Part shown: piece after piece, positions 6,444 to 32,785 of the stretch | Layout of the letters: the number at the start of each line of letters is the position of its first letter | How positions within the stretch are numbered: position 1 is the stretch's first letter | NCBI GenBank assembly: GCA_018334565.1 | Contig: JAGXLU010000007.1 | Location: forward strand, 1 to 32,785 | DNA: 32,785 nucleotides | Direction: 5' to 3' | Origin: Halanaerobiales bacterium | GTDB taxonomy: Bacteria > Bacillota > Halanaerobiia > Halanaerobiales > M55B127 | The notes under the pieces: generated by a model | Told to the model about the DNA's origin: nothing | The model's input: the letters and a program-made list of their open reading frames with translations, nothing else | Database searches by the model: none | Made by a program: the position numbers and the translations under genes

Positions 6444-7526
6444 GTGCAGGAACATGAAGAGTGGTTAAATGAAATATTAGAATTGATAGCTCCTGGAACC
6501 GCCTTTAGGGAAGGCCTGGAGAATATATTAAAAGCTAAAACCGGTGGATTGATCATATTAGCAGAAAATAATGACGTCATTAAGAGCTTGGTGGATGGTG
6601 GATTTAAGATAGATGTTCTGCTAACTTCTACAAATCTTTATGAGTTAGGTAAGATGGATGGCGCAATTGTTCTTGATGCAGAAGCAAAAAATATTCTTTA
6701 TGCCAATGCACTTCTTATTCCTGACCCCACCATTAAGTCAAGTGAAACAGGCGCAAGGCATCGAACCGCAGAAAGGGTTGCCAAACAAACTTCCAATTTA
6801 GTAATAGCAATTTCAGAGAGAAGAGACATAATTACTTTATATAAAAATGAAAAAAAACATGTCTTGGAAGAAATCAGGGTTGTACTTTCCAAAGCCAATC
6901 AAGCTGTGCAAACCCTGGAGAAGTATAGAAAAGTTTTTGACCAGACCTTAATAAATTTAAGTGCTTTAGAATTTGAAAATTTGGTTACTATTGCAGATGT
7001 GGTTACTGTTATAAAAAGAGCAGAGATGGTTTTGAAAATTAAAAATGAAATCGAAAAATATATTTTAGAACTTGGCAATGAAGGTCGTTTAATTGAAATG
7101 CAGCTGGAAGAATTAGTAATGAGTGTAGAAGAAGAAAACAAGTTATTGATTAAGGATTATATCGCAGAAGAAAAACTTGCAGATGAGGTTGCAGCTGAAG
7201 ATATCATCAAAGAATTAAGAGAGCTTAATAAAGATGATATGCTAACAACAAGAGAAATAAGAAGCATTTTAGGACATGGTGGTAATGTTAATTCACTGGA
7301 TTTAATCATAGATCCAAGAGGATACAGGATTTTAAAAAAGATACCAAGACTGCCGATGCCGGTTATTGAAAATATTATTGAAGAATTTGGAGATCTAAAT
7401 GAAATTAATGTTGCTTCATTAGATGAATTAGATGAAGTAGAAGGTGTTGGAGAGGTTAGAGCTCAGGCCATTAAAGATGGACTGAGGAGATTGAGAGATC
7501 AAGTATTACTTGACAGGCACATCTAA
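6444..7526 (+). CDS. disA: DisA, DNA-integrity-scanning diadenylate cyclase
   Basis: A 360-residue octameric protein that makes c-di-AMP from two ATP and slows when it meets branched DNA. The N-terminal DAC domain carries both hallmark motifs, DGA at 72-74 and RHR at 105-107, so it should be active. A helical linker follows, and the C-terminal helix-hairpin-helix DNA-binding region includes GVGEVRAQ at 334-341. It starts at GTG 6444, seven bases after AAGGAGAG. It is probably co-transcribed with radA upstream and with the carD-like gene 27 bases downstream. Confidence 0.96.
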   Translation: MQEHEEWLNEILELIAPGTAFREGLENILKAKTGGLIILAENNDVIKSLVDGGFKIDVLLTSTNLYELGKMDGAIVLDAEAKNILYANALLIPDPTIKSSETGARHRTAERVAKQTSNLVIAISERRDIITLYKNEKKHVLEEIRVVLSKANQAVQTLEKYRKVFDQTLINLSALEFENLVTIADVVTVIKRAEMVLKIKNEIEKYILELGNEGRLIEMQLEELVMSVEEENKLLIKDYIAEEKLADEVAAEDIIKELRELNKDDMLTTREIRSILGHGGNVNSLDLIIDPRGYRILKKIPRLPMPVIENIIEEFGDLNEINVASLDELDEVEGVGEVRAQAIKDGLRRLRDQVLLDRHI

Positions 7527-9224: not shown

Positions 9225-9251
9225 TATTTGAATATAAGAAGGAGATTTACA

Positions 9252-9944
9252 ATGTATATTAGTGCAATTATTCCAGCGGCTGGATCAGGTAGCCGGATGC
9301 AGACAAGAGAAAATAAATTATATATTAAACTGGCGGGTAAGCCGGTGCTTTATCATACCTTAGAGACGTTTATTAATAATTCATTTATCAACAAAGTCAT
9401 CTTAGTTTTACAAACAGGTCAGGCAAAAAAATTTGAAAAAAATGTATTAAAATTATTAAATGATAAAAAAAGTAAGATTCAGACTATAATTGGTGGTGCA
9501 AGCAGAAAGGATTCTGTGTTTAATGGTATAAAAGCTGCTCCTGACGAAACTGACTATATAATTATTCACGATGGGGTAAGACCTTTAATAACAAATGATA
9601 TACTTAATAAAGTGATTGGTGCTTTAGAAATAGAAGAAGCGGTGACAACCGGGGTTAAAGTTAAGGACACTATTAAGATAAAAGATCATAATAATTATGT
9701 TGTAAAAACTGTAAATAGGGATAATTTGATTTCTATACAAACCCCGCAGGCTTTCAATTATGATTTAATAAAAGAAGCCCATCAGACTAATATTTTTGAT
9801 AAAAATATAACAGATGATGCTTATTTAATTGAATTGATGAATAAAAAAGTTAAGATTATTATAGGTTCATATGACAATATAAAAATAACAACTCCTATTG
9901 ATATTGCACTTGCAGAAAATATCTTAAAAAGTAGGAGCAAATGA
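9252..9944 (+). CDS. ispD: IspD, 2-C-methyl-D-erythritol 4-phosphate cytidylyltransferase
   Basis: A 230-residue enzyme that joins CTP and MEP to give CDP-methylerythritol, the third step of the MEP isoprenoid pathway. The CTP-binding loop AAGSGSRM is at residues 9-16 with Lys22 downstream, and DGVRPL and the ITDDAYLIE segment are also family features. I choose ATG 9252, directly after AAGGAGATTTACA, over an upstream in-frame TTG at 9228, because the family begins just before AIIPAAG. Its stop overlaps the first possible ATG of ispF. Confidence 0.94.
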   Translation: MYISAIIPAAGSGSRMQTRENKLYIKLAGKPVLYHTLETFINNSFINKVILVLQTGQAKKFEKNVLKLLNDKKSKIQTIIGGASRKDSVFNGIKAAPDETDYIIIHDGVRPLITNDILNKVIGALEIEEAVTTGVKVKDTIKIKDHNNYVVKTVNRDNLISIQTPQAFNYDLIKEAHQTNIFDKNITDDAYLIELMNKKVKIIIGSYDNIKITTPIDIALAENILKSRSK

Positions 9945-9958
9945 CAGGAGAGACAAAA

Positions 9959-10438
9959 ATGAGAGTGGGGATAGGTTTTGATGTGCACAAGTTTAAAAAA
10001 GATACCCCCTTATATTTGGGAGGAGTTAAGATAAATTATAAAGCCGGATTAAAGGGCCATTCAGATGCTGATGTTCTTATTCACGCCTTAATTGATGCTC
10101 TTTTAGGTGCAATGGGTAAGGGAGATATAGGAGAAATGTTTCCAGATACTGAGATTAAGTATAAAAATATAAGAAGTACTGAATTACTTAATGATGTAGT
10201 AGATATTATGTTAGATAATAATTATAAATTAATAAATACAGATCTGGTACTCATAGCCCAAAAACCCAAAATTAAAACATATAAAGATGTAATAGAAGAA
10301 AAATTAAGCAGTCTACTGAGGATAGAAAAATCACAGATAAATTTAAAGGCAACAACGACGGAAGGGCTTGGTTTTTTGGGCAGAACAGAAGGTATTGGTG
10401 CACAGGCAGTAGTGTTAATATCAGAGTTAATACAATAA
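9959..10438 (+). CDS. ispF: IspF, 2-C-methyl-D-erythritol 2,4-cyclodiphosphate synthase
   Basis: A 159-residue trimeric zinc enzyme that cyclises CDP-methylerythritol 2-phosphate with loss of CMP. The ligands are visible: Asp8 and His10 in GFDVH, and His42 after the HSDADV motif (34-39). The TTTEGLGFLGRTEGI region near the C-terminus is also typical. Two starts are possible. ATG 9959 has CAGGAG upstream and gives the classic MRVGIGFDVH beginning. ATG 9941, overlapping the ispD stop and preceded by TAGGAGC, would add six residues. I prefer 9959. ispE is not here, as is usual for this cluster. Confidence 0.94.
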   Translation: MRVGIGFDVHKFKKDTPLYLGGVKINYKAGLKGHSDADVLIHALIDALLGAMGKGDIGEMFPDTEIKYKNIRSTELLNDVVDIMLDNNYKLINTDLVLIAQKPKIKTYKDVIEEKLSSLLRIEKSQINLKATTTEGLGFLGRTEGIGAQAVVLISELIQ

Positions 10439-10467: not shown

Positions 10468-11253
10468 ATGTTGATTAAAGATATTATGACTAAAAACCCC
10501 ATTACAATTGAAACTAATATGACCGTATCAGAAGCCGAGAAGGTATTATCTATCAATAAGATAGGTAGATTAGTAGTTGTTGACGATGGGAAGATTGTAG
10601 GAATTTTAACGGACGGAGATTTAATAAGTAATCATCACATCAAAGGAAAAATAAATGATTATATGTCGAAAAATGTAATAACTATTAAAGAATCAGATAC
10701 TGTACAAAAAGCAGCTAGGTTATTATCTGATAATCAAATTGGCGGAATGCCGGTGATTAATAAAAATAATAAACTGGTCGGGATTGTAACTGCAGATGAT
10801 ATTGTATTTGGTTATATGAAAGACGGAGAAGAATTAGAGGTGGAAAAAAAGAATATAAATCCAGAAAGTGCTGCTATATATCTCTCCATGACAAGAAGTA
10901 GAGAATATGAAGAATACTGGTTGGAAAAGATTAAGGGATATGGATATAAAGGAGCTATTACCCAAACTGGAGCCAATTCAGAAAAGCTACCGGTAAAACT
11001 AAGGGAAAGTACGACTGTAGCAGCTATAGCAAGGGGTGTTATTGCTGAGAATTCCCGGGAGAAATCAGCAGTATCAAATGCAGTCAAAGATGCATATATT
11101 CAACTGGCTTTGATCAATCCAGGCCTGGGTGGAGGATTTAAGATAGCTGTGGTCAGGGGTCCTGAATATATATCGGTTGCAATCTTTGGTAAATTCGGAC
11201 ATGCTTTAGTTGATGGACATGAGCAACTATCAATTGGAACCAGTGTAATTTAA
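10468..11253 (+). CDS. CBS-domain pair fused to a HutP-like domain; putative ligand-sensing regulator
   Basis: 261 residues. Two CBS domains (about 1-55 and 60-118), normally an adenine-nucleotide-binding module, are followed by a HutP-like domain (about 131-261). The match to Bacillus HutP, recalled from memory, follows its whole core: TVAAIARGV, the GFKIAVVRG strand, and the final YISVAIFGKFGH...DGHEQLSIG block. HutP is a histidine-dependent RNA-binding antiterminator. The C-terminal metal-ligand His is retained here (His251), but the helix that carries the other two HutP histidines reads KSAVSNAVK and lacks them. Histidine sensing is therefore doubtful. It lies between ispF and gltX, with no hut genes nearby. 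The target and ligand are unknown. Confidence 0.8.
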   Translation: MLIKDIMTKNPITIETNMTVSEAEKVLSINKIGRLVVVDDGKIVGILTDGDLISNHHIKGKINDYMSKNVITIKESDTVQKAARLLSDNQIGGMPVINKNNKLVGIVTADDIVFGYMKDGEELEVEKKNINPESAAIYLSMTRSREYEEYWLEKIKGYGYKGAITQTGANSEKLPVKLRESTTVAAIARGVIAENSREKSAVSNAVKDAYIQLALINPGLGGGFKIAVVRGPEYISVAIFGKFGHALVDGHEQLSIGTSVI

Positions 11254-11323: not shown

Positions 11324-12799
11324 ATGAGTGAGATGCGCTTAAGATTTCCACCCAGCCCAACGGGTAAAATTCATATAGGTAATATGCGAACAGCCCTTTT
11401 TAACTGGCTATGGGCAAAAAAGAATAATGGTAAGCTTATATTAAGAATTGAAGACACTGATCAAAAAAGATCAACCAAAGAGTTTGAAGATATTATTATA
11501 AAAGAGTTGGACTGGTTAGGTATAGACATTGATGAAGGGGCTAGTGTTGGTGGTGAATATGGTCCCTACCGACAATCAGAAAGACTTGTCCTATATCAAA
11601 AATATGTTGAAAAGTTATTAAAAAAGGGTAAGGCATATAGATGTTATTGTAGTGAAGAAGAACTTGAGCAAATGAGAAAAGATGCCTTGGCGCGAGGAGA
11701 TATGCCTAAATATAATGGGCACTGTCGTAATTTAAGCCGGGAGGAAGAACTAAAATATATTGAAGAAGGACGAGAACCGGTTATCAGATATAGGTTAACA
11801 GAAGAAGATAAAGATATTGTGGTAAATGATGAGATTAGAGGTGACGTTACATTCAATACATCAGTTCTAGACGATTTTATAATCTTTAAATCTGATGGTA
11901 TGCCCACCTACAATTTCGCAGTGGTGATAGATGATGCCTTGATGAAGATCACCGAGGTTATCAGAGGTGAAGATCATTTATCTAATACACCCAAACAAAT
12001 ATTAATTTATGAAGCACTTGACTTTCCAGTACCTAAATTTGCACATTTACCTTTGATATTGGATAGTGATAGGGCTAAATTGAAAAAAAGAAGTGAAGAT
12101 GATGATGTTTACATCGGGGAATATAGAGAAAAAGGTTATCTGCCAGAAGCTTTATTTAACTTTCTTGTTTTTTTGGGTTGGTCTCCTCCGGATGATAAAG
12201 AAATCCTCACGAGAGATGAGATAATCAAAAATTTTGAACTCAACGATATTAATAAAAGTGCAGCTGTTTTTGATATTGATAAACTGAACTGGGTTAATGG
12301 AAAATATATTAGGGAGGCCGATTTAGATTATATAGTAGAGTTGTCAATACCTTATTTAAAAGAAGCAGGTTATATAGACGAGGTATTTGTAGAGAAAAAT
12401 TATGAATGGTTAAAAAAGGTAATAGGAGTATCCCGCACAGGAGTAGATTATCTGAGTCAAATTCCTAAAGAAGCAGAGTTATTTTTTAAAAAATTAGAGT
12501 TTGAAGATAAAAAGAAAGCTGTAAAGGAATTTCAAGAAGAGGGTGTGGAATTGGTCTTTACAAACCTCAAGAAAAAACTAATAGATTTAGATGAATTTAA
12601 GCCTGAAAAGATCAGCACTGTATTTTCGGAGTTGATTAAAGAACTGCCCGTAGGTGGTAGAACTGTTTATCACCCCACCAGATTGGCTTTAACTGGCATG
12701 GATTCGGGACCTGAAATGAAAAATGTCATATATATATTGGGCATCGAAGAAACAATCAACAGATTAGATAAAGCCCTCATGATGAGAGATCAAAAATAA
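11324..12799 (+). CDS. gltX: Glutamyl-tRNA synthetase
   Basis: A 491-residue class I synthetase that charges tRNA(Glu) in the cytoplasm. The HIGH motif is HIGN (17-20) within PSPTGKIHIGNMRTALFNW. The second ATP signature, usually KLSKR in bacterial GluRS, reads KLKKR at 252-256, with Lys in place of Ser. A zinc-finger-like CYC...C pattern follows at about residues 108-134. The C-terminal helical anticodon-binding region is complete. The start follows AAGGAGGAG. Whether the enzyme also charges tRNA(Gln), with correction by an amidotransferase, cannot be seen from here. A terminator-like hairpin follows directly. Confidence 0.95.
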   Translation: MSEMRLRFPPSPTGKIHIGNMRTALFNWLWAKKNNGKLILRIEDTDQKRSTKEFEDIIIKELDWLGIDIDEGASVGGEYGPYRQSERLVLYQKYVEKLLKKGKAYRCYCSEEELEQMRKDALARGDMPKYNGHCRNLSREEELKYIEEGREPVIRYRLTEEDKDIVVNDEIRGDVTFNTSVLDDFIIFKSDGMPTYNFAVVIDDALMKITEVIRGEDHLSNTPKQILIYEALDFPVPKFAHLPLILDSDRAKLKKRSEDDDVYIGEYREKGYLPEALFNFLVFLGWSPPDDKEILTRDEIIKNFELNDINKSAAVFDIDKLNWVNGKYIREADLDYIVELSIPYLKEAGYIDEVFVEKNYEWLKKVIGVSRTGVDYLSQIPKEAELFFKKLEFEDKKKAVKEFQEEGVELVFTNLKKKLIDLDEFKPEKISTVFSELIKELPVGGRTVYHPTRLALTGMDSGPEMKNVIYILGIEETINRLDKALMMRDQK

Positions 12800-16460: not shown

Positions 16461-16517
16461 AGTCTATAGATAACCTATATAATAATATTAATGTTAACAC
16501 CGGCCTACAATATTAAC

Positions 16518-17729
16518 AAAGGAGAGATGAATATAATGGCTAAGGAAAAATTTGAAAGGACAAAACCACATCTTAATATTGGAACTATCGGACATGTTGA
16601 CCACGGCAAGACAACCCTAACAGCAGCAATAACCTCAGTATTAAACAATTATGGTGGAGCTGAGGTAAGGGATTTTGATTCAATTGACAATGCCCCTGAA
16701 GAGAAGGAAAGAGGCATAACAATAGCGACATCCCACGTTGAATACGAGACAGAGTCTAGACATTACGCTCATGTTGATTGTCCGGGGCATGCTGATTATG
16801 TAAAGAACATGATAACAGGTGCAGCCCAGATGGATGGAGCGATTTTAGTTGTATCAGCGGCAGACGGTCCTATGCCTCAGACCAGGGAGCATATTTTATT
16901 AGCTCGCCAGGTAGGAGTACCAAGCATTGTGGTATTTTTAAACAAGTCAGACATGGTAGATGATGAGGAGTTAATAGAGCTGGTAGAGATGGAAGTAAGG
17001 GACTTACTAAATGAGTATGATTTTCCAGGAGATGATATACCTGTAATAGTAGGTTCAGCTTTAAAGGCATTGGAGAATGCTGATCCAGAGGGTCCATATG
17101 GCAAGAAGATAGTGGAGTTAATGGAGGCAGTAGACTCATATATACCGGAGCCTGAAAGAGACAGTGACCAGCCCTTTTTAATGCCGATAGAAGATATATT
17201 TTCAATTAAGGGTCGTGGCACAGTAGCGACCGGCAGGGTAGACAGAGGCACATTACATCCTCAAGATGAGGTAGAGATAGTGGGCATCAAGGAGACCGAG
17301 AGCACGGTAGTGACCGGTGTAGAGATGTTCAGGAAGTTACTGGATGAAGCGGTAGCGGGAGACAATATAGGCGCCTTATTAAGAGGAGTCAAGCGAGAGG
17401 AAATAGAGAGGGGCCAAGTTTTAGCAGAGCCGGGCAGTATAAACCCTCATACCAAGTTCAAGGCAGAGGTATATGTATTATCGAAAGATGAGGGTGGGCG
17501 TCACACACCATTTTTTGATGGATATAGGCCTCAATTTTATTTCAGGACAACAGATGTAACAGGTACGATATATTTACCAGAGGGAGTAGAGATGGTAATG
17601 CCGGGCGACAATATAGAGATGAATGCAGAACTAATTACTCCGATAGCTATGGAAGAGGGTTTAAGATTTGCGATTCGCGAAGGCGGACGTACTGTGGCTT
17701 CTGGTGTTGTAACTGATATAGTTGAGTAA
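16518..17729 (+). repeat. Long direct repeat: tuf unit, copy 1 of 2
   Basis: A segment of about 1.2 kb (ribosome-binding site plus the whole tuf gene) recurs at about 31574-32785, an offset of 15,056 bases, in the same orientation. The upstream edge of identity is sharp (C before AAAGGAG here, A in the other copy). The downstream edge cannot be tested because the window ends there. Confidence 0.95.
16536..17729 (+). CDS. tuf: Elongation factor Tu, copy 1
   Basis: A 397-residue GTPase that delivers aminoacyl-tRNA to the ribosome. GTP motifs: GHVDHGKT (19-26), DCPGH (82-86), NKSD (137-140); domains 2 and 3 follow and are complete. The start is ATG 16536, 11 bases after AAGGAG; an in-frame ATG nine bases earlier sits too close to the Shine-Dalgarno. 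I see no difference from the copy at 31592, and the identity extends about 18 bases upstream through the ribosome-binding site. The central part is richer in GAG, GTA, ATA and AGG codons than neighbouring genes. A terminator follows. Confidence 0.97.
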
Positions 17730-20157: not shown

Positions 20158-20186
20158 TAGTTTTGTTAAAATTAAATATTAGTTAA

Positions 20187-20318
20187 CCATAGATAGTGGG
20201 GGTCAGATATGACTTAAACTTACCTGCTGAGGTTAGGTTTTTATAACAGTGTGATATAGTTATACATACTGGATAACATATCTAAAATCATCCTGCCTAT
20301 CTATGGCAGGCTTTTATT
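20187..20318 (+). ncRNA. L10 leader RNA with attenuator terminator
   Basis: Leader of the ribosomal-protein L10 type upstream of rplJ. CCATAGATAG (20187-20196) is an exact complement of CTATCTATGG (20297-20306). The same 3' segment also belongs to a terminator, CCTGCC (20292-20297), loop, GGCAGG (20305-20310), followed by a T-rich tract. The two folds exclude each other. In between lies an imperfect hairpin (about 20216-20243, AAACTTACCT with AGGTTAGGTTT). In Bacillus the L10(L12)4 complex binds this leader and promotes termination; the same is inferred here. Confidence 0.85.
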
Positions 20319-20375
20319 TTTATAAACTTGCAAATTTAATGTAGACGGTTATTATAGGGAGGTGAGTTGTTATAA

Positions 20376-31573: not shown

Positions 31574-32785
31574 AAAGGAGAGATGAATATAATGGCTAAG
31601 GAAAAATTTGAAAGGACAAAACCACATCTTAATATTGGAACTATCGGACATGTTGACCACGGCAAGACAACCCTAACAGCAGCAATAACCTCAGTATTAA
31701 ACAATTATGGTGGAGCTGAGGTAAGGGATTTTGATTCAATTGACAATGCCCCTGAAGAGAAGGAAAGAGGCATAACAATAGCGACATCCCACGTTGAATA
31801 CGAGACAGAGTCTAGACATTACGCTCATGTTGATTGTCCGGGGCATGCTGATTATGTAAAGAACATGATAACAGGTGCAGCCCAGATGGATGGAGCGATT
31901 TTAGTTGTATCAGCGGCAGACGGTCCTATGCCTCAGACCAGGGAGCATATTTTATTAGCTCGCCAGGTAGGAGTACCAAGCATTGTGGTATTTTTAAACA
32001 AGTCAGACATGGTAGATGATGAGGAGTTAATAGAGCTGGTAGAGATGGAAGTAAGGGACTTACTAAATGAGTATGATTTTCCAGGAGATGATATACCTGT
32101 AATAGTAGGTTCAGCTTTAAAGGCATTGGAGAATGCTGATCCAGAGGGTCCATATGGCAAGAAGATAGTGGAGTTAATGGAGGCAGTAGACTCATATATA
32201 CCGGAGCCTGAAAGAGACAGTGACCAGCCCTTTTTAATGCCGATAGAAGATATATTTTCAATTAAGGGTCGTGGCACAGTAGCGACCGGCAGGGTAGACA
32301 GAGGCACATTACATCCTCAAGATGAGGTAGAGATAGTGGGCATCAAGGAGACCGAGAGCACGGTAGTGACCGGTGTAGAGATGTTCAGGAAGTTACTGGA
32401 TGAAGCGGTAGCGGGAGACAATATAGGCGCCTTATTAAGAGGAGTCAAGCGAGAGGAAATAGAGAGGGGCCAAGTTTTAGCAGAGCCGGGCAGTATAAAC
32501 CCTCATACCAAGTTCAAGGCAGAGGTATATGTATTATCGAAAGATGAGGGTGGGCGTCACACACCATTTTTTGATGGATATAGGCCTCAATTTTATTTCA
32601 GGACAACAGATGTAACAGGTACGATATATTTACCAGAGGGAGTAGAGATGGTAATGCCGGGCGACAATATAGAGATGAATGCAGAACTAATTACTCCGAT
32701 AGCTATGGAAGAGGGTTTAAGATTTGCGATTCGCGAAGGCGGACGTACTGTGGCTTCTGGTGTTGTAACTGATATAGTTGAGTAA
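31574..32785 (+). repeat. Long direct repeat: tuf unit, copy 2 of 2
   Basis: Partner of the repeat at about 16518-17729. The match begins 18 bases before the start codon and runs to the end of the window. Confidence 0.95.
31592..32785 (+). CDS. tuf: Elongation factor Tu, copy 2
   Basis: 397 residues with the same sequence as the copy at 16536; I find no base difference over the gene or over about 18 bases upstream, and the sequences diverge immediately before that. GTP motifs, domains and start choice are as for copy 1. It is the last gene of the str operon. The window ends on its stop codon, so it is complete, but nothing can be said about how far the identity continues downstream. Confidence 0.97.

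Follow-up and report, generated by a model that had tools for sequence, protein, structure and literature searches.

The analysed stretch, referred to here as the window, comprises 32,785 nucleotides of contig JAGXLU010000007.1 from a Halanaerobiales bacterium. It encodes a 261-aa protein in which a tandem CBS pair is joined by a linker to a HutP domain (CBS-HutP, Table 1). The genes are arranged in the order ispD, ispF, CBS-HutP, gltX and cysS, and the position between ispF and gltX that had been assigned from the sequence was confirmed by profile matches for both neighbours. A disA gene (c-di-AMP synthase domain, 6444-7526) is part of this gene block and precedes CBS-HutP by five genes. Elsewhere in the window, a ribosomal protein L10 leader was detected at 20169-20327 (Rfam RF00557), and the ORFs 16491-17729 and 31583-32785, which share an identical 16-mer and similar antisense ORFs, are probably duplicate tuf genes.

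Table 1. Features of the CBS-HutP locus (positions in the window; residue numbers refer to CBS-HutP unless HutP is named)
Feature	Position	Strand	Evidence or remark
ispD	9228..9944	+	PF01128, E 8.9e-64
ispF, directly upstream, 29-nt gap	9941..10438	+	PF02542, E 7e-63
CBS-CBS-HutP protein	10468..11253	+	single 261-aa ORF; two Pfam CBS domains and HutP above cut-offs
CBS domain 1, approximately residues 3-53, with G45 and D51 of the nucleotide motif	10474..10626	+	Pfam
CBS domain 2, residues 63-113, with G105, T108 and D111 of the nucleotide motif	10654..10806	+	Pfam
Variable linker, residues 119-131	10822..10860	+	mean column identity 0.51
HutP domain, residues 134-257	10867..11238	+	PF09021 match; fold match to HutP
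S200 to N204; S200 and N204 at the positions of HutP His73 and His77	11065..11079	+	alignment
His251, at the position of HutP His138	11218..11220	+	alignment; His in the window alone among 49 compared
gltX, downstream	11324..12799	+	TIGR00464, E 1.7e-167

Both halves of the protein are recognised within the same ORF. The CBS match reached 109.9 bits (E 7.1e-32, cut-off 24), in line with the clear N-terminal CBS pair of the original prediction, and the HutP match (PF09021) reached 111.3 bits (E 4.9e-32, cut-off 25), with 112.8 bits in a further search. The fusion is genuine and is conserved in the class of the window. Both domains are already known and their pairing is visible to Pfam; no paper on it was found in the open-licence PMC literature, a scope outside which most subscription journals fall.

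CBS-HutP carries tandem CBS domains (PF00571) together with their nucleotide motif, which we take to be G-h-x-S/T-x-x-D: G45, D51, G105, D111 and a Thr or Ser at position 108 are present in all 49 CBS-HutP proteins compared, and a Thr or Ser at position 48 in 44 of them. In a model of the full-length protein, the CBS half matched AcuB and MJ0100 with Z-scores of 18-19, both of which were solved with adenine ligands. Together with DarB, these CBS-pair regulators superpose on the pair of CBS-HutP (Z 17-19) and the nucleotide motif is kept; in contrast to CBS-HutP, no HutP domain is named in their listed entries. With the NCBIfam model for the c-di-AMP-binding protein CbpB/DarB (NF041630), CBS-HutP scored 25.7 bits, below the cut-off of 125. 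The full-length model had a pTM of 0.50 and is thus a poor guide to how the domains are arranged relative to one another, and pLDDT values in the linker fell below 50 at residues 120-127. As all 50 matches listed in the fold search with this model were CBS proteins, it was uninformative on the HutP half.

The HutP half was assessed in a monomer model of its own, built from a 32-sequence alignment (pLDDT 91.7, pTM 0.88). The PDB matches found by Foldseek at E ≤ 0.001 were three HutP chains and nothing else (1vea, E 3.8e-9), and six HutP entries realigned with Z-scores of 17.0-18.4 and an rmsd of 1.9-2.3 over 123-129 residues, whereas SpoIIAB, the next of the listed entries, reached a Z-score of 6.9. 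The predicted structure thus agrees with the earlier proposal that the C-terminal half has the HutP fold. Sequence searches with the HutP domain of the window, its family profile, the standalone HutP-type protein L001 and a standalone profile found no solved HutP relative, so the tie of CBS-HutP to the HutP structures comes from the fold comparison; a paralog that retains the ligand histidines (L123) did match Bacillus subtilis HutP by sequence (E 3.5e-6). Compared with HutP of B. subtilis and Geobacillus (1vea, 1wpv, 4ok9), the HutP half has the same fold at 22-24 % identity, but CBS-HutP differs by the added CBS pair, a locus without hut genes and the family-wide replacement of the three metal-ligand histidines.

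Profile searches revealed that the architecture is recurrent and not an oddity of one genome. A profile of the HutP half scored at least 198 bits in 36 of 398 sampled genomes of the phylum, followed by a single 62-bit fragment from one of these 36 genomes and then by scores of at most 54 bits, and thereby sets the CBS-HutP family apart cleanly. Within the class of the window, the gene is present in 49 of 59 genomes (absent from G433, G420, G429, G275 and G398-G403), and in a second class in 15 of 17. None was found in 148 and 81 genomes of two other phyla, a result that shows little as it came with no positive control. In a phylogenetic tree, the 21 CBS-HutP domains included formed one clade (support 100/98); the long branches outside this clade are unreliable.

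The two halves of the protein evolve at different rates. In loci outside the class, the median identity to the window was 73 % for the HutP domain (16 loci) and 30 % for the CBS pair (16), compared with 45 % for IspF (15) and 34 % for IspD (9), which makes the HutP domain the slowest-evolving part, changing more slowly than the enzymes encoded next to it for which identity was determined. Across 49 distinct proteins, many of which are close relatives and not independent, 57 of 130 columns in the HutP half (residues 132-261) are invariant versus 6 of 118 in the CBS half, with mean column identities of 0.85 and 0.58, respectively. The nucleotide motif accounts for four of the six invariant CBS columns (G45, D51, G105, D111), and the HutP domain contains dense invariant polar blocks (MTRSR, KLRE, NPGLGGGFK and FGHAL.DG). 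For these counts the duplicates L086 (identical to L037) and L088 (identical to L039) were removed. The partial gene L055 was left out of every alignment, and the truncated L052 was omitted from alignments A1 and A2 and kept in the column counts; A2 held 12 of 22 CBS-HutP domains, A3 11 of 31 standalone proteins and A4 32 rows.

To describe the genomic neighbourhood, 58 loci were read, corresponding to 55 distinct ones (repeats: L037/L086, L039/L088 and L054/L095; L094 is the window). An ispF gene lies upstream of CBS-HutP in 55 of the 58, at a distance of up to 300 nt in 54 and of 448 nt in L104. In L115 and L135 the adjoining gene is ispD and no ispF was found, and in L139 the contig ends first. 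Consequently, the nearest recognised upstream gene is ispF or ispD in all 54 assessable distinct loci, in place of the hut genes that accompany the HutP antiterminator. On the downstream side, 41 of 58 loci (38 of 55 distinct) have gltX no more than 700 nt away; in many of the remaining ones a MurA-like ORF occupies this place (assigned by eye, with L110 scanned against Pfam), and L152 shows another arrangement. As ispF or ispD is found upstream wherever this can be assessed and gltX in 38 of 55 loci, the stable genomic partner is ispF/ispD and not gltX. Seven of the ten class genomes without CBS-HutP have ispF or a fused ispDF followed by gltX, so the gene can be missing; in two of these empty sites no gene remnants were recognised at E <0.2. 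In G433, G420 and G399 ispF was not found either, and the region may therefore be missing from the assembly. The proximity to ispF may reflect inherited gene order.

The residues that we take to form the metal and L-histidine site of B. subtilis HutP, His73, His77 and His138 (numbering verified on the PDB chain), align with residues 200, 204 and 251 of CBS-HutP. Among 49 distinct family members, residue 200 is variable, residue 204 is Asn in 46, and at position 251 there are 43 proteins with Pro, five with Thr and the window alone with His; even a relative that is 96 % identical over its best segment (L033) has Pro at this position. Hence, His251, which the original prediction had regarded as a retained HutP residue, does align with His138 but is not a kept ligand, and not two but all three of the metal histidines have been lost family-wide. 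Including Glu81, the set H73/H77/E81/H138 has changed to variable/N (S, Y)/D/P (T), and the site of the HutP antiterminator proper is lacking. Other HutP-type proteins carry sets of their own: His/His/Glu/His in three His-retaining paralogs, Gly/Gly/Glu/gap in eleven standalone proteins and Arg/Arg/Arg/His in four proteins of another type. The HutP His/Mg pocket has thus been rebuilt in CBS-HutP and its ligand has very probably changed, as had been proposed, and judging from the alignments, the differing sets fit a pocket with several changes of ligand. The presumed RNA contacts of HutP, Thr56, Thr99 and Glu137, are not kept either, their positions being occupied by Val/Ala/Ile-type residues, Gly and Gly.

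The location away from hut genes had been noted for this protein. It holds true for this locus but is not unusual: 257 of the 398 genomes sampled from the phylum contain PF09021 matches, and among 31 standalone loci read (the 30 top-scoring phylum loci, L003-L032, and L001), the 1.5-kb flanks contained a chorismate mutase ORF in 29, a TrpE-like ORF in 15 and a DAHP synthase ORF in six, with one example of each scanned against Pfam (examples near aromatic genes: L010:1052-1908, L012:2-943). No hut gene was recognised among the neighbours that recur in these flanks. The standalone types (e.g. L004, L001) share PF09021 with CBS-HutP and have no HxxxH motif in the 11 aligned rows; they differ in lacking the CBS pair, in forming a separate clade and in their chorismate mutase neighbour, and are 28-33 % identical to the HutP domain of the window in ten rows and 26 % for L001. 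They represent a possible unrecognised regulator of the aromatic pathway, and no paper linking HutP and chorismate mutase was found in the open-licence PMC literature. In the genome of the window itself, the genes for hutH and urocanase are located on contig C15, and its only two PF09021 matches are on C39 and C93. The one on C93 is a second, standalone HutP (L001:1489-1899), whose neighbours encode a rubrerythrin and the substrate-binding protein of an ABC transporter. Two further groups were noted: a subfamily of 156-166 aa with the Arg/Arg/Arg set lies beside an ABC transporter (L116:3259-3750, L117:3130-3627, L118:2929-3396), with LpxK also adjoining in L116, and three paralogs keep the HxxxH motif and the His at position 138 (L120:3146-3637, L123:2810-3229, L124:3029-3547), and visual inspection of the 6.5-7 kb read there revealed no hut gene.

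The neighbouring transcripts had been considered possible RNA targets, but the sequence around the gene gives no sign of one. Between ispF and gltX of the window there is no terminator-like site, no leader was found near the CBS-HutP gene, and the ispD-gltX region gave no Rfam match at gathering scores. The gap between CBS-HutP and gltX, calculated from script-chosen start codons, could be measured in 22 loci including the window; it spans 15-116 nt in 21 of them and 501 nt in L050, and in L051 gltX was not found. Repeated NAG-type triplets were not enriched: the triple-NAG pattern occurred 15 times in the window versus 21.5 expected, and triple TAG did not occur in the window; targets may lie elsewhere. 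For this locus, a cis antitermination target was therefore rejected. OLE RNA was also considered, as its genes can adjoin isoprenoid genes (PMC12265935). This candidate was discarded, as OLE was not found in the genome of the window and does not track the CBS-HutP gene (25 of 49 class genomes with the gene, 7 of 10 without).

Taken together, these results support a conserved regulator that combines a nucleotide sensor with an unusually constrained output domain of the HutP fold. HutP itself is well known as the antiterminator of a single operon, with a built-in L-His/Mg2+ pocket as its switch. Our preferred reading, to which we assign a probability of about 0.42, is that CBS-HutP acts as a regulator gated by nucleotides, with the HutP fold as its framework and RNA as its most likely partner. 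The CBS pair would bind an adenine nucleotide, such as ATP, ADP, AMP, c-di-AMP or an adenosyl compound, and binding would alter the arrangement of the HutP domains, which are probably assembled as in HutP. This rearrangement would then switch their binding to a conserved macromolecule, for which single-stranded RNA from transcripts produced elsewhere in the cell is the most likely candidate, and the regulated process probably includes isoprenoid supply by the MEP pathway. With the pocket rebuilt and an additional sensor present, the switching role may have passed from the L-His/Mg2+ pocket to the CBS domains; however, HutP types without CBS domains have lost the same histidines, so that their loss need not mean a takeover by the CBS pair. 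We infer RNA binding by CBS-HutP from a single line of evidence, the predicted fold. It is possible, though doubtful, that the family forms a new class of nucleotide-gated riboregulator, in which the HutP-fold RNA-binding assembly is retained, the His/metal switch is replaced by a CBS sensor, most of the genomes examined in two classes carry it and its function is tied to isoprenoid synthesis.

The conserved partner could also be a protein. An oligomer of CBS-HutP may sense the nucleotide and bind an enzyme such as IspD, IspF or another one without any involvement of RNA, using the HutP fold as a docking domain, comparable to DarB with Rel. The presence of ispF or ispD as the nearest upstream gene in all 54 assessable distinct loci, the loss of the HutP ligand residues and the precedent of CBS proteins like DarB that act on partners (Rel-DarB structure 8acu) are in agreement with this idea, but IspF and IspD vary far more than the HutP domain, which does not suggest a fixed interface, and ispF was not found in the two loci where ispD is next. 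We consider this explanation unlikely, albeit a serious contender. Improbable in our view, but likewise a serious contender, is that the HutP domain senses a metabolite of the neighbouring pathway, for example an MEP intermediate, while the CBS pair reads the energy charge and the output is RNA or protein. Each HutP subfamily indeed has its own rebuilt pocket and its own neighbours (aromatic genes, the ABC transporter and LpxK in L116, ispD/ispF); against this, the standalone L122 has no aromatic-pathway gene recognised by eye beside it, and a pocket alone does not account for 57 invariant columns. The dense invariant polar blocks would suit a HutP domain that has turned into an enzyme or a structural scaffold unrelated to regulation. 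This is very improbable, given that every listed PDB entry above Z 7 is HutP and that CBS pairs usually regulate rather than catalyse.

At this locus the HutP fold is fused to a nucleotide sensor, and the HutP domain shows greater conservation than the adjoining enzymes that were measured. If CBS-HutP binds RNA, HutP would belong to a wide family of RNA regulators in this phylum that are controlled by metabolites and nucleotides, and a connection of nucleotide signalling with isoprenoid supply could be put to the test.
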